In this document: one piece after another, positions 3,816 through 7,578 of the stretch
Numbering within the stretch: position 1 is the stretch's first letter
Layout of the letters: the number at the start of each line of letters is the position of its first letter
IMG/VR virus record: IMGVR_UViG_3300048929_000125
Coordinates: 1 to 23,267 of that record
Direction: 5' to 3' (one strand)
DNA: 23,267 nucleotides
Origin: a virus
Translations under genes and position numbers: made by a program
The notes under the pieces: generated by a model
The model's database searches: none
Seen by the model: only the letters and a program-made list of their open reading frames with translations
Told to the model about the DNA's origin: nothing

Positions 3816-4166
3816 TTAACTCAGTGGGATAGTGAGGGAAAAAGGCTGGTTTGAGTTGGTGCGCGTGCCGGTAATATCGACATACAGCGCGCCGTCATCC
3901 TCACCGCGCTCAAAGGTGATGGTCGACAGACTGACGCGTGGCTCCCACTTCTGGATCGCCGAGTAGCACGCGGCCATAATCTGCAGCCGCAGCGCCGGGG
4001 TCTGCGGCTGGTCAATCAGCGCTGACAGCAGCGAGCCATATTCACGGCGCATCACACGCGAACCAACCGGCGTGACCAGAATGTCGCGCACGCTCTGCCT
4101 GATATGGTCGGCCTCAGAAATACTGAGCCCGGTGTGGCTGTTCATACCTAAATAACGCACCGTCAT
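3816..4166 (-). CDS. W: Baseplate wedge protein W (gp25-like)
   Basis: A protein of 116 aa (P2 gpW about 115 aa) of the T4 gp25 / GPW family. The characteristic region is SISEADHIRQSVRDILVTPV followed by GSRVMRREYGS (about 36-46), where the family's conserved EYG lies. It is a core piece of the baseplate wedge. Its ATG overlaps the V stop codon (ATGA), which indicates coupled translation. Confidence 0.95.
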   Translation of the reverse strand: MTVRYLGMNSHTGLSISEADHIRQSVRDILVTPVGSRVMRREYGSLLSALIDQPQTPALRLQIMAACYSAIQKWEPRVSLSTITFERGEDDGALYVDITGTRTNSNQPFSLTIPLS

Positions 4167-4804
4167 TTCGTCCCCTCCGTTCTGCTACCGCCGCGTTCTA
4201 CTCCGCCGTGGTCGTGGTCATCCACCTGCACGCCGTTCGAGGTCAGTTTCCCGCCGCTGTGCTCGATATTTCCTTTCATCGTCCCGCCCTTCTGCACTTC
4301 GAGTGAGCCGGTGATGAGCTTGTTAGTGCACACCACTTCTGGGGTATCGAGCGTGATGCGGGTTTCAGCTTTGACCAGCACCACCGGCACAGTGGCGGTA
4401 AGGGATTCCGACGCGGTGACGTCGGCGGTTTTGATACCGGACACGGTGAGCGCCCCGCTGTCGGGTTCGTACTCGATAACCGCCCCGTCGGGAAAGGCAA
4501 TGTGAAGCGCATCAGGCGAGGCAGACGGCGCGGGATTGTCATCAGAGAAAATGGAGGGCAGCACAAACGCGGTGTCGAGTTCGCCACCGATGGCAAGAAT
4601 CAGCACCTGCTCGCCAACGGAAGGAGCCCACCACACACGCGAGCGACCGGCGCGGGAGGTCAGCCAGTTAAGCCAGGTGGTTTGCATCCCGCCGGTCTGG
4701 ACGCGACAGAGCCCAGCATCGTGATCGACGTCGGTCACGATGCCGGTACGGATAAGGTTGCGCATAGCGCGAGCGATATCCTGAAGTGAATTTAATGTGT
4801 TCAT
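4163..4804 (-). CDS. V: Tail spike / baseplate hub protein V
   Basis: A protein of 213 aa (P2 gpV about 211 aa). Residues 15-90 form the OB-fold part shared with T4 gp5 (VQTGGMQTTWLNWLT). Residues 100-190 are the repeat-rich beta-helix. The C-terminal tip has DDHDHGG with H197 and H199, the H-x-H motif that binds iron at the membrane-piercing apex of P2-type spikes. The gene is first in the tail operon. No strong Shine-Dalgarno sequence is seen before the ATG at 4804 (upstream bases read ATTCTACCTCC), which is odd for an abundant late gene. Directly upstream begins the AT-rich foreign island. Confidence 0.94.
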   Translation of the reverse strand: MNTLNSLQDIARAMRNLIRTGIVTDVDHDAGLCRVQTGGMQTTWLNWLTSRAGRSRVWWAPSVGEQVLILAIGGELDTAFVLPSIFSDDNPAPSASPDALHIAFPDGAVIEYEPDSGALTVSGIKTADVTASESLTATVPVVLVKAETRITLDTPEVVCTNKLITGSLEVQKGGTMKGNIEHSGGKLTSNGVQVDDHDHGGVERGGSRTEGTK

Positions 4805-4847
4805 GGAGGTAGAATGCCGCCTGGTATGGTCAACGACAATTAAATGC

Positions 4848-4871
4848 AGTTTGAAGAGGCATGAAACAACA
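4848..4871 (-). promoter_or_regulatory. Candidate late activator site upstream of V (PV), uncertain
   Basis: On the minus strand a perfect left half-site TGTTGT is followed after 12 bases by CAAACT, which matches the ACAACA half poorly (3 of 6). A site centred here would start transcription near 4804, on the V start codon itself, so the spacing does not fit well. A second isolated ACAACA occurs at 4915-4910, which would place the start near 4866. One of these is probably PV, but I cannot decide which. Confidence 0.3.
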
Positions 4872-5109
4872 CACTGATACTGTGCGAGATCAAAAAACTG
4901 TCGTTCCCTTGTTGTTCAACCTCTTACTTTTAAATAATTGAGATATTGAAAGTCATACAAGTGAACTATTTCATTGCAATCAGGAAATATTTAAAAAAAA
5001 TAAAACCAATTAACTCATGCTATAAGTTAAAAAATTTCCGATTGAACCATGAAGGAAACCAGGCAATAATAATAGCGTAGGTAAACCAAAAACAAAGCAA
5101 TGATATATT

Positions 5110-5143
5110 AGCGGACGGTGATGTCGCCTACTCCGCTCTTTTC
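5110..5143 (+). terminator. Hairpin followed by a short T tract
   Basis: On the plus strand AGCGGA (5110-5115) pairs with TCCGCT (5132-5137), with an inner GGTG/CGCC stem and ATGT loop, followed by CTTTTC. This has the shape of a Rho-independent terminator for plus-strand transcription, but I see no plus-strand gene before it. Read on the minus strand, the same bases follow an ATG and a 5-codon frame. It may be a structured part of an unknown RNA. Confidence 0.4.
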
Positions 5144-5225
5144 ATTAAATTAAACCCAGCCCTCCAGAATAATTATTACAATAATAAATGCTTGAAAGTT
5201 AGAAAAATATGATCATGAAATTAAA

Positions 5226-5332
5226 ATCGTGGTGCCGGGTGCCTCCCGGTGCTTCTTTGCCAGACCAAAGAAGCGCGAGCATATCGCAAAGGTGTCTGGT
5301 TCGACCCGCCGCATAGGGGGATTCACCACACC
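5226..5332 (-). ncRNA. Structured small RNA, possibly C4 / P4 CI-type antisense RNA
   Basis: The minus strand reads GGUGUGGUGAAUCCCCCUAU from the predicted start at about 5332. Stems seen: GUGGUG (5329-5324) with CACCAC (5234-5229) closes the whole molecule; CCGGG with CCCGG (5249-5235) forms a 5-bp hairpin; GCUUCUUUG with CAAAGAAGC (5274-5251) forms a perfect 9-bp hairpin. The 6-base loop of the last hairpin (GUCUGG) is exactly complementary to upstream CCAGAC (5299-5294), so a pseudoknot or a switch between two folds is possible. The C-rich AUCCCCCUAU near the 5' end is the kind of segment that pairs with ribosome binding sites. The pattern reminds me of the C4/CI phage antisense RNAs, but that family assignment is from memory. 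The 3' end is uncertain. Confidence 0.55.
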
Positions 5333-5336
5333 TAGA

Positions 5337-5365
5337 AAAATAGAAAACAGTCTCACGTGAGTCAA
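5337..5365 (-). promoter_or_regulatory. Strong sigma-70 promoter with palindromic operator for the 5226-5332 RNA
   Basis: On the minus strand TTGACT (5365-5360), a 17-bp spacer, and TATTTT (5342-5337) make a close match to the sigma-70 consensus. The 10-bp perfect palindrome CTCACGTGAG (5352-5361) sits in the spacer and touches the -35 box, as an operator would. The start is predicted near 5332-5330. Confidence 0.6.
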
Positions 5366-5528
5366 GTTTTTTTAGCAGACATGTGTTTTTTCATGATCCC
5401 ATGATCACAATAAAGAAATTTTGTGTCAGCTATGCTTATACCAAACGAAAAAGCATGCTTTTGTCACACCAGCTTAGTTTATATTTCCAACATTAATTGA
5501 CAATCATTATCTGACCTGCATGAAAACG

Positions 5529-5560
5529 CAAAAAAAAGTCCATCAATAAATTGACAGACT
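5529..5560 (-). terminator. Rho-independent terminator of the 5530-5609 RNA
   Basis: On the minus strand AGTCTGTCAAT, loop TT, ATTGATGGACT pair over 11 positions (two as G-U), followed by seven more T residues. This is a textbook intrinsic terminator facing left. Confidence 0.75.
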
Positions 5561-5609
5561 TCTGAAATATCAGAAAAGGTGCTTACCAACCATTTACTTC
5601 AGATGAAGT
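5530..5609 (-). ncRNA. Compact small RNA candidate with its own promoter and terminator
   Basis: A predicted minus-strand RNA of about 80 nt with three stem-loops in a row: AUUUACUUC/GAAGUAAAU (9 bp, 4-base loop, 5613-5592), UUCUGA/UCAGAA (5575-5560), and a terminator hairpin with a U tract (5560-5530). No open frame of useful length is present. The layout (promoter, 5' hairpin, short single-stranded part GGUUGGUAAGCACC, U-tailed terminator) is that of a trans-acting bacterial sRNA of the Hfq-binding kind. The 5' hairpin lies partly at the predicted start, so it could be an operator instead. Target and function are unknown. Confidence 0.55.
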
Positions 5610-5615
5610 AAATTT

Positions 5616-5645
5616 AGCATAGCACCACTTATGAGAAACGTACAA
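5616..5645 (-). promoter_or_regulatory. Promoter of the 5530-5609 RNA
   Basis: On the minus strand TTGTAC (5645-5640), an 18-bp spacer, and TATGCT (5621-5616) preceded by TG (extended -10). The 22-base inverted repeat 5592-5613 begins just after the -10 box, so it may also be a regulator binding site. Confidence 0.5.
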
Positions 5646-5932
5646 GTTTTTAGTATTCATTACCTATAGAACCAATAGAATGCTTACCATGCGTCTATGA
5701 TAAAACACATGGAACCACTCAGTAAGGACCTGCTTAACCACACAAAACTGCTTCAACTCTATTTAAATCAATAAACTCCAGCTTAAAATAGAGAATATAT
5801 GAATACGTTCTCCATAACTCACTTCAGTTTTCTTAGAATCAACTGTTCAATGAGAAACTTTTCTTGCATATCGAACACGAGTAACTTGCGTTCTGGGTAT
5901 TGCACATTTACTGCCACCAAACCTTGAATAGC

Positions 5933-5966
5933 CAATCGAAAAATAGTTAAAGATATTTTTCAATTG
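5933..5966. repeat. 13-bp inverted repeat
   Basis: CAATCGAAAAATA (5933-5945) and TATTTTTCAATTG (5954-5966) are inverted copies with one mismatch and an 8-base loop. It lies about 140 bases past the end of the acyltransferase gene. It has no T tract and is not a clear terminator; a protein-binding site or weak transcript end is possible. Confidence 0.4.
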
Positions 5967-6101
5967 CCGTATTTAAAACGAACCACCACTATTAAATGCC
6001 ACATTCCACATTTTGCTGACAGTAGCATTTTTCAATCTTCATTCTGTTTACCTATCGCATAATTCGAGATTCGACACTCATCCAACTAAATATATACTCT
6101 A

Positions 6102-6893
6102 CTAACGGATAATTCCACGTGTTGAGTGCTGGAAAAACCATTCGAATAGTTCGCCAACAGGATGCTTATTTAACCTCTCTTTTAACATAACCTTCGCTTC
6201 ATGTAACGATAGTGATTTATTGTAAAGTATATCGTAACAACCTTTTGTTAAGCTCTGATCGCTCTGACCCGACCCGGTGAAATATCTGGATGTGGTGTCT
6301 ATTCCATTGGGTTCAGCATAGTTACCGCTAGCATAAACAAATGGGGGAATATCCTGAGTTACACCTGAGTGATGCCCAACATTTGCATATGCACCTAATA
6401 CACAGAATTGATGGATTGCGCACATGAACCCGACCACAGCACCATCACCCAGTGCAACATGTCCTGCCAGGCCGCTGTTATCACCAATGTGCGTACTATT
6501 ACCAATGATGCAGTCATGCCCAATGTGAACGTTATTCAGGAGGGTATTATCGTCACCTATTATAGTGTAATTATTATCTTGCGCCGTGCCTCGATGGATT
6601 GTTGCATTGTTACCAATATTGTTACGACTCCCTATAATTAGCCTGGTTGACTCATTTTTATATTTTAGATCTTGATTCACTTCACCTATCGATGAAAACT
6701 GCCCAATCTGATTATCACACCCGATAACTGTAAATCCATTAATAACTGAATGGGACCCTATAATAGTTCCCTCACCAATAACAACATCCGCAGAAATAAT
6801 ACAAAATGGACCGATATTGACATGTGCCTCGATCACTGCGCCTGGTGCTATGATACTGCTACTCGAAACGCGTGCAGTAGAAGAGATCGTCAT
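6102..6893 (-). CDS. LpxA-like UDP-N-acetylglucosamine O-acyltransferase (moron gene)
   Basis: A protein of 263 aa, one longer than E. coli LpxA and alignable along its whole length (IGPFC, SIGEVNQDLKY, TIHRGT, HDC, IHQFC, final STRGIIR). Residues 1-190 are the hexapeptide-repeat left-handed beta-helix; the rest is the helical C-terminal domain. LpxA transfers a hydroxyacyl chain from acyl carrier protein to UDP-GlcNAc, the first step of lipid A synthesis. The catalytic base (H126, LpxA H125) and H123, H145, H161, K77, Q74 and D75 are kept. The acyl-chain ruler G173 is replaced by His174, H191 by Tyr192, and the GLKRRGF segment with R204/R205 is missing. A shorter acyl chain or a different sugar substrate is therefore likely. 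AGGA lies 8 bases before the ATG. The gene is AT-rich, stands alone and is oriented with the late genes; I infer a role in changing the lysogen's surface. Confidence 0.85.
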   Translation of the reverse strand: MTISSTARVSSSSIIAPGAVIEAHVNIGPFCIISADVVIGEGTIIGSHSVINGFTVIGCDNQIGQFSSIGEVNQDLKYKNESTRLIIGSRNNIGNNATIHRGTAQDNNYTIIGDDNTLLNNVHIGHDCIIGNSTHIGDNSGLAGHVALGDGAVVGFMCAIHQFCVLGAYANVGHHSGVTQDIPPFVYASGNYAEPNGIDTTSRYFTGSGQSDQSLTKGCYDILYNKSLSLHEAKVMLKERLNKHPVGELFEWFFQHSTRGIIR

Positions 6894-7113
6894 TTATATT
6901 TCCTGATAGCTAGAATGCTTATCGTCCAAAAAACGTTACGTTGGCTATCGTTCTGGAACAGCCACAAGGTAACGCTAACACTTTTATCAAGCTACAGAAT
7001 ACTCGTAATATCGTTACGTAGCGAATGTCTTGGCAGGAACAGTTTCTGCTATAACCTGGCTATTCAAGCGCTTTAAATACTATCATAATGAAATGCAAAA
7101 TTCCCATCCGAAA

Positions 7114-7578
7114 TTATTCAAAGGCTGAACTATCCCCAAGGTAATCAACTATCAGCTCCTCAATATATTTTTTATCAGCACGACTAAATCCCAGCAACTC
7201 ACGCTGTGGATACTGAACATCCTGACTATTAGGGGTTGGCCTGTCTTTAAGTCCGTACTGATGGATCTGCACGATACGTTGCACCTTACCGGTAAACTGC
7301 ACCACAGCAGTATCATTGCGGCCACGGGCTTTCATGTAGCGGCTGGTTCGCAGCTTCTGAAACATCGCCCTTTTAATACGCCCTTTTTTTGCCCTGATCG
7401 GCTGACGCTTTCGCGCCTGATACGGCGTGCCATCCGGGGCTTTTTGCAGTTTAATCCGTTGCTGTTGCGATTTTCGCAGCTCTTTCGCAATCGCAGCAGC
7501 AAGCTTTCGCCGCCCCGCCGGTGACAGCGCCCCAATCAGCCCGGCGAGCTTATCGTCAAAAGGCTTAAACTCATTCAT
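7114..7578 (-). CDS. S: Tail completion protein S
   Basis: A protein of 154 aa (P2 gpS about 150 aa) of the phage virion morphogenesis / tail completion family. It is basic in the first 90 residues (KELRKSQQQRIKLQK, QPIRAKKGRIKRAMF) and ends with the family's QYGLKDRP and YPQRELLGFS motifs. With R it finishes the tail before head joining. Its start overlaps the end of R by 8 bases. It is the last gene of the O-to-S operon; 7113 to 6894, between it and the acyltransferase gene, holds no gene and no promoter I can defend. The C-terminal residues (DSSAFE) lie next to the AT-rich island and may have been changed by its insertion. Confidence 0.93.
   Translation of the reverse strand: MNEFKPFDDKLAGLIGALSPAGRRKLAAAIAKELRKSQQQRIKLQKAPDGTPYQARKRQPIRAKKGRIKRAMFQKLRTSRYMKARGRNDTAVVQFTGKVQRIVQIHQYGLKDRPTPNSQDVQYPQRELLGFSRADKKYIEELIVDYLGDSSAFE

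Follow-up and report, generated by a model that had tools for sequence, protein, structure and literature searches.

The window, that is, the whole stretch of DNA analysed here, is an IMG/VR virus record of 23,267 bases which is P2-like and whose hosts are gut-type bacteria. Its P2-like genes include those for lysis and replication, and those for tail, capsid, terminase, portal, repressor and integrase bear out the proposal of a first-pass annotation that the lpxA-like gene (Table 1) is borne by a prophage. The closest phage record is Enterobacter phage ENT4, with 85.6% identity across 94% of the compared 8.1 kb structural stretch.

Table 1. Coordinates of the lpxA-like gene and of the features around it in the window
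Feature	Position	Strand	Remarks
gpV baseplate gene	4163..4804	-	one border of the cargo slot
1.3 kb low-GC stretch 3' of the lpxA-like gene	4805..6101	-	no ORF >50 aa
Rfam STnc100 small RNA match	5180..5359	-	55.1 bits (gathering 47); within the 1.3 kb ORF-free stretch
lpxA-like gene	6102..6893	-	ATG start, 263 aa, TAG stop
Gap from gpS to the lpxA-like gene	6894..7113	-	presumed own promoter, inferred by comparison
gpS-type virion morphogenesis / tail completion gene	7114..7578	-	other border of the cargo slot

The slot between gpS and gpV

A low-GC insert (GC 0.36-0.41 vs 0.5-0.6) separates gpS from gpV and contains the lpxA-like gene, which lies on the minus strand, a point absent from the first-pass annotation. 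Because the same slot is empty in three of eight other P2-like prophages and phages and is filled with unrelated genes in the remaining five, the gene is an optional cargo (moron) of P2-like prophages. The filled slots (L052, L053, L155, L157 and L160) contain HEPN together with DUF262, several unknown proteins and one weak match to LmuA; in E. coli KV7, an NsnA-like DUF262 gene is present next to a HEPN gene. A known defence hotspot of P2-like phages adjoins cos (PMC9122126), and the gpS-gpV slot is distinct from it. The window protein itself matched no known defence family in PADLOC, and its assignment as a defence gene by homology was rejected.

Four sister viral contigs carry the gene at 96-100% identity, one of these copies being frameshifted, and a profile scan of viral contigs gave high-identity matches limited to the same P2 group. 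LpxA matches in fecal 'Bacteriophage sp.' records were rejected as support, their identity being below 41%. The LpxA of Pseudomonas phage Y1 (L112, OQ572403.1) was also set aside as phage support, since the record is marked UNVERIFIED and the copy resembles the chromosomal lpxA of P. aeruginosa; it is used here solely as a P. aeruginosa comparator.

The low-GC stretch downstream of the gene is common to the sister phages L002, L003 and L005, and matches to it were sought in E. coli and phage collections and none was found. The region of roughly 4871 to 5935 is missing in a P2 relic near tonB of Lelliottia sp. WAP21 (L006, 3995-5695). This relic has an intact copy of the gene, flanked by remnants of gpS and gpV that consist of their ends alone and are about 83% and 78% identical to the window.

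The LpxA2 paralogues and their upstream regions

In agreement with the end-to-end LpxA match claimed earlier, the window protein aligns gaplessly to solved LpxAs (E about 7e-74 for PDB 1lxa), and the alignment runs from residue 4 of E. coli LpxA to its C-terminus with 122 of 262 residues identical (47%). The protein contains the LpxA C-terminal domain PF13720 and passes both curated NCBIfam models of LpxA, NF003657 (272.1 bits, cut-off 226) and TIGR01852 (236.5 bits, cut-off 231). The predicted AlphaFold monomer has modest confidence (pLDDT 74, pTM 0.66), and its top Foldseek matches are all LpxA with a TM of only 0.38; the model indicates the fold class only and nothing about the pocket.

Relatives with 55-84% identity were found by genome scan in Lelliottia, Buttiauxella, Citrobacter, Dryocola, Enterobacter, Cedecea and Serratia records. 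A canonical lpxA (about 400 bits) accompanies the paralogue (about 250-280 bits) in each of the 15 enterobacterial genomes tested, and Lelliottia sp. WAP21 has a canonical lpxA and two paralogues, namely the P2-relic copy and L054. Among 392 sampled genomes of the family to which one Buttiauxella genome (G009) belongs, at least 28 carry the paralogue, as do 11 of 12 in the genus of G009. One record titled Chryseobacterium sp. (L015, CACSKA010000003.1) has the enterobacterial flhA-flhE ... argS locus, and this assembly is probably mislabelled or contaminated.

In a maximum-likelihood tree, 38 paralogues form one clade (support 100) which is sister to the LpxA of Enterobacteriaceae and Serratia (support 98), with Proteus LpxA placed outside both and a paralogue stem of 0.43 substitutions per site. 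The window protein falls outside the LpxA orthologues and within this clade, for which we have coined the family name LpxA2, and it has the complete family signature (R204F, replacement of G173 and M170, A136G, T140G, A121V and T157C). New conserved residues have appeared in the family, for example Phe at position 204 in 34 of the 38 paralogues. The tree and the signature rule out a phage-private mutation of a host LpxA; the changes characterise an old paralogue family of the chromosome and are no individual modification of LpxA by the phage. On this topology, LpxA2 arose by duplication of lpxA inside the Enterobacterales, followed by fast change. Between paralogues dN/dS is 0.10-0.16, against 0.02-0.05 for the canonical lpxA of those genome pairs; the phage gene and the Lelliottia relic give 0.24. 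The family is thus under purifying selection, which is less strict than that on LpxA.

The paralogue occupies at least five unrelated chromosomal places: at flhE-argS, next to eptA, close to ybjG, close to dsbD and in the P2 relic near tonB. In one syntenic group (L095-L104) it is divergent from the gene of an EptA/MCR-3-like phosphoethanolamine--lipid A transferase; other neighbours are PAP2/ybjG in Serratia, and a GPH symporter with beta-galactosidase and argS in others. These neighbours (eptA, PAP2/ybjG, symporter, argS) were set aside as a guide to function, each seeming to reflect a single inherited location and to add no independent evidence.

A near-invariant AT-rich element, GTTCANAAAATAAATAAAATATA, precedes many chromosomal copies (L012, L091, L095-L099, L103 and others) whose genes are in unrelated places. 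It is located about 150-230 nt upstream of the paralogue, and a TATGCT-like box follows it at a fixed distance of 49-50 nt, irrespective of leader length (42 to 183 nt). The element was detected in seven of ten searched genomes, where it occurs exactly once, before the paralogue, and no known regulon emerged for it. Its position leads us to infer a resemblance to a promoter UP element. The phage copies are without the AT-rich element. In the window, a consensus promoter scan of the minus strand at 6894..7113 gave no match; TTATGAT, located inside TTTCATTATGAT and 195 nt upstream of the ATG, resembles the TTCATTATGCT box of the chromosomal paralogues, and the ribosome-binding region ATCAGGA is common to the window and its relatives. 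The retention of the TTTCATTATGAT box at about equal distance in the phage copies suggests that the phage may have taken the gene together with part of its promoter. In the metagenome contig L002, 161 bp are missing between gpS and the lpxA-like gene (around 1128-1138), either by deletion or as an assembly artefact; the junction shows a short shared word.

Catalytic, acyl-pocket and uridine-contact residues

Residues are given in E. coli LpxA numbering unless stated otherwise; the phage number is higher by one. All 12 catalytic and GlcNAc acceptor residues (Q73, D74, L75, K76, H99, H122, H125, D126, G143, H144, H160 and Q161, listed from PMC6286764 and general LpxA knowledge) are kept in the window protein, and the enrichment at catalytic positions has p = 8e-5 for this protein alone. 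The catalytic pair H125 and D126 corresponds to phage H126 and D127, and the alignment confirms the retention of H126, H123, H145 and H161 (phage numbering) reported earlier. Q73, D74, K76, H99, H122, H125, H144, H160 and Q161, which place the 3-OH of GlcNAc and the hydroxyacyl group, are invariant in the paralogues.

Of the nine acyl-pocket residues, A142 alone is kept in the window protein, the changes being A136G, N137D, T140G, I152V, G155F, M170N, G173H and H191Y (Val153, Phe156, Asn171, His174 and Tyr192 are the phage residues at 152, 155, 170, 173 and 191). The pocket positions are the ligand contacts of P. aeruginosa LpxA (PMC6820557) with an offset of +4, which is confirmed by alignment of P. 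aeruginosa Met169 with E. coli Gly173, supplemented from PMC6286764 and PMC6408518. None of the four residues of the uridine contact region (the contacts N198 and R205 and their neighbours E200 and R204) is kept, while eight orthologues keep three or four of them and R204 is found in every canonical LpxA of the alignment. The depletion of pocket and uridine residues together has a Fisher p of 0.004 for the window protein alone. The first-pass annotation had recognised His174 at Gly173, Tyr192 at His191 and the loss of the GLKRRGF segment with R204 and R205, all of which the alignment reproduces; the segment reads SRYFTGS in the window protein, with Phe205 and Thr206 in place of R204 and R205 (R204F, R205T). 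The pocket change is much broader than was stated there, because I152V, G155F, M170N, N137D, A136G, T140G and E200T had been overlooked.

This pattern extends over the family. The 38 paralogues are identical to E. coli LpxA at 100% of the catalytic and acceptor positions, 18% of the acyl-pocket positions, 22% of the uridine contacts and 48% of all positions; on average about 1.6 of nine pocket residues and 0.9 of four uridine contacts are kept, with 12 of 12 catalytic and GlcNAc residues in every member. Orthologues that are equally distant from E. coli LpxA (Acinetobacter, 135/262 identical; Neisseria, 126/262; Psychrobacter, 122/262) keep five to eight of the nine pocket residues and three or four of the four uridine residues. 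Mean pocket hydropathy is 1.21 in enteric LpxA, 0.19 in the window protein and -0.68 as the mean of the paralogue family, and the hydrophobic acyl-chain pocket of LpxA is thus not found in the window protein.

G173 and H191 are ruler residues of LpxA (PMC6286764, PMC6408518). The earlier statement that a bulkier residue at position 173 shortens the acyl chain is upheld by E. coli G173M and by M169 of P. aeruginosa LpxA, both of which use C10 (PMC6408518); in the alignment, this position is occupied by Met in P. aeruginosa LpxA and by Phe in Neisseria LpxA. Tyr at position 191 had been regarded as a meaningful change and is ordinary variation, as the LpxA of Aeromonas also has Tyr there, with Pro in Pseudomonas and Acinetobacter and Arg in Neisseria. 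Because the pocket is polar, with Asp, Lys or Arg in most relatives (D173, K/R170 and Q152 in most chromosomal members), a one-residue shortening of the C14 chain would be just one among several readings of the sequence. The idea of an altered acyl donor or acceptor is consistent with the remodelled ruler and nucleotide contact; its attribution to an individual phage modification of LpxA does not hold.

Candidate functions and known counterparts

We give roughly an even chance to the explanation that the window gene is a phage-captured LpxA2 and codes for an active acyltransferase which, by using a different acyl donor, alters part of the lipid A or of a related glycolipid precursor. The different acyl group would probably be shorter or more polar. 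In such a scheme, the LpxA2 duplicate would live beside the normal lpxA, with P2-like phages carrying a copy as optional cargo between gpS and gpV. A trimer would use the H125/D126 chemistry to acylate UDP-GlcNAc, or a closely related compound, at its 3-OH from acyl-ACP (or CoA), the prophage-expressed protein would compete or co-assemble with host LpxA, and part of the lipid A (or related glycolipid precursor) would receive altered 3/3' chains. That an added LpxA can act alongside the native one has a precedent in Bordetella pertussis, which makes mixed lipid A if it receives P. aeruginosa lpxA while keeping its own LpxA (PMC7712016). The envelope change of the lysogen may protect against other phages or envelope stress; by analogy, the former is plausible because the gpS-gpV slot elsewhere carries defence-like genes and P2-like phages have the cos hotspot.

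Several points stand against this explanation. With R204, R205 and E200 lost, UDP-GlcNAc may no longer be the acceptor, the charged pocket residues of most relatives are ill-suited to a plain fatty chain, and the copy in the sister prophage L005 is frameshifted.

The first two points would fit a paralogue that acylates or acetylates another nucleotide sugar, for a surface glycan or a signal molecule and not for lipid A. Such a role would account for the lost uridine contacts E200, R204 and R205, to which N198 is added in the phage, and for the polar or charged groove, and it agrees with the fact that no lpx operon gene adjoins any of the enterobacterial copies. However, all residues which place the 3-OH of GlcNAc and the hydroxyacyl group are invariant, and no sugar-nucleotide pathway gene was recognised among the scanned neighbours of what is a single stand-alone gene in different places. 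We consider this role unlikely.

A regulatory subunit, which in mixed trimers with host LpxA and through altered shared active sites tunes or throttles lipid A synthesis, is less likely still. The active sites of LpxA lie between subunits, with catalytic and uridine contacts provided by different chains (PMC6286764), and LabP of Cronobacter, which is LpxA-related, binds and stimulates LpxA, a hetero-oligomer having been proposed (PMC5770445, PMC12444477). For pure regulation, however, there would be no need to retain the 12 catalytic and acceptor residues in full for so long.

It is very unlikely that the gene is decaying cargo without function in the phage. The frameshifted copy of L005 (6001-6791) would agree with this, although its DNA is 99.6% identical to the window and the frameshift may reflect decay or a sequencing error, as would the four amino-acid changes and zero synonymous changes between the window and L003. 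Against it, the gene is intact in the window, L002, L003, L004 and the Lelliottia relic, the dN/dS towards the relic is 0.24 and the catalytic set is complete. A spare LpxA that retains almost the usual C14 specificity and raises the supply of lipid A while the phage grows would explain why both NCBIfam equivalog cut-offs are passed, but with one of nine pocket residues kept, against five to eight in equally distant orthologues, we regard it as the most improbable of all.

LpxA counts as an essential enzyme that is invariant and present in a single copy, and as a drug target, and automatic models label LpxA2 as LpxA. If the phage-captured LpxA2 is an active acyltransferase with a different donor, the synthesis of outer-membrane lipid A may be changed in the lysogen at its first step. 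In a fraction of Enterobacterales, LpxA2 could affect how lipid A is built, how LpxA inhibitors act and how phages are received, and its presence on a P2-like phage means that it can move between strains. A wider proposal, which we make tentatively and consider unlikely to hold, is that Enterobacterales possess an overlooked, mobile second LpxA with a gene-specific promoter, which would make lipid A or a glycolipid with unusual 3/3' acyl chains either by itself or in a hybrid trimer with LpxA. In open-access full text, which leaves most subscription papers outside, no paper was found that joins lpxA with P2-like prophages, the nearest lines of work being the two LpxA homologues of Psychrobacter (PMC4557000) and LabP.

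Among known systems, E. coli LpxA (NF003657, TIGR01852) shares with the window protein its length, the gapless hexapeptide helix, PF13720, H125/D126 and all acceptor-site residues. It differs from the window protein in the acyl pocket and uridine contacts, which are replaced in the latter, and in belonging to a separate clade; the window gene is stand-alone, outside lpxD-fabZ-lpxA-lpxB, and the paralogues occur beside a normal lpxA. The LpxAs of P. aeruginosa and Neisseria (C10 and C12 types) also have a bulky residue in place of G173; unlike the window protein, they keep R204, N198, E200 and a hydrophobic pocket and are the usual LpxA of their hosts. Francisella uses LpxD1 and LpxD2 as a temperature switch in which paralogous acyltransferases give different chain lengths; the likeness is in having acyltransferase paralogues, and these are LpxD, not LpxA, and chromosomal only. 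Psychrobacter cryohalolentis, compared by description only, has two LpxA homologues per genome as the LpxA2 hosts do, belongs to a different lineage, and its second homologue has been suggested to serve temperature-dependent lipid A (PMC4557000). LabP of Cronobacter sakazakii, likewise compared by description only, is an LpxA-binding activator (PMC5770445) that is said to be LpxA-like and is present beside LpxA (PMC12444477); its reported identity to LpxA is 26.7%, as against 47% for the window protein. LpxA2 has the fold and probably the chemistry of LpxA, and differs from it in donor pocket, lineage and carriage by a phage.
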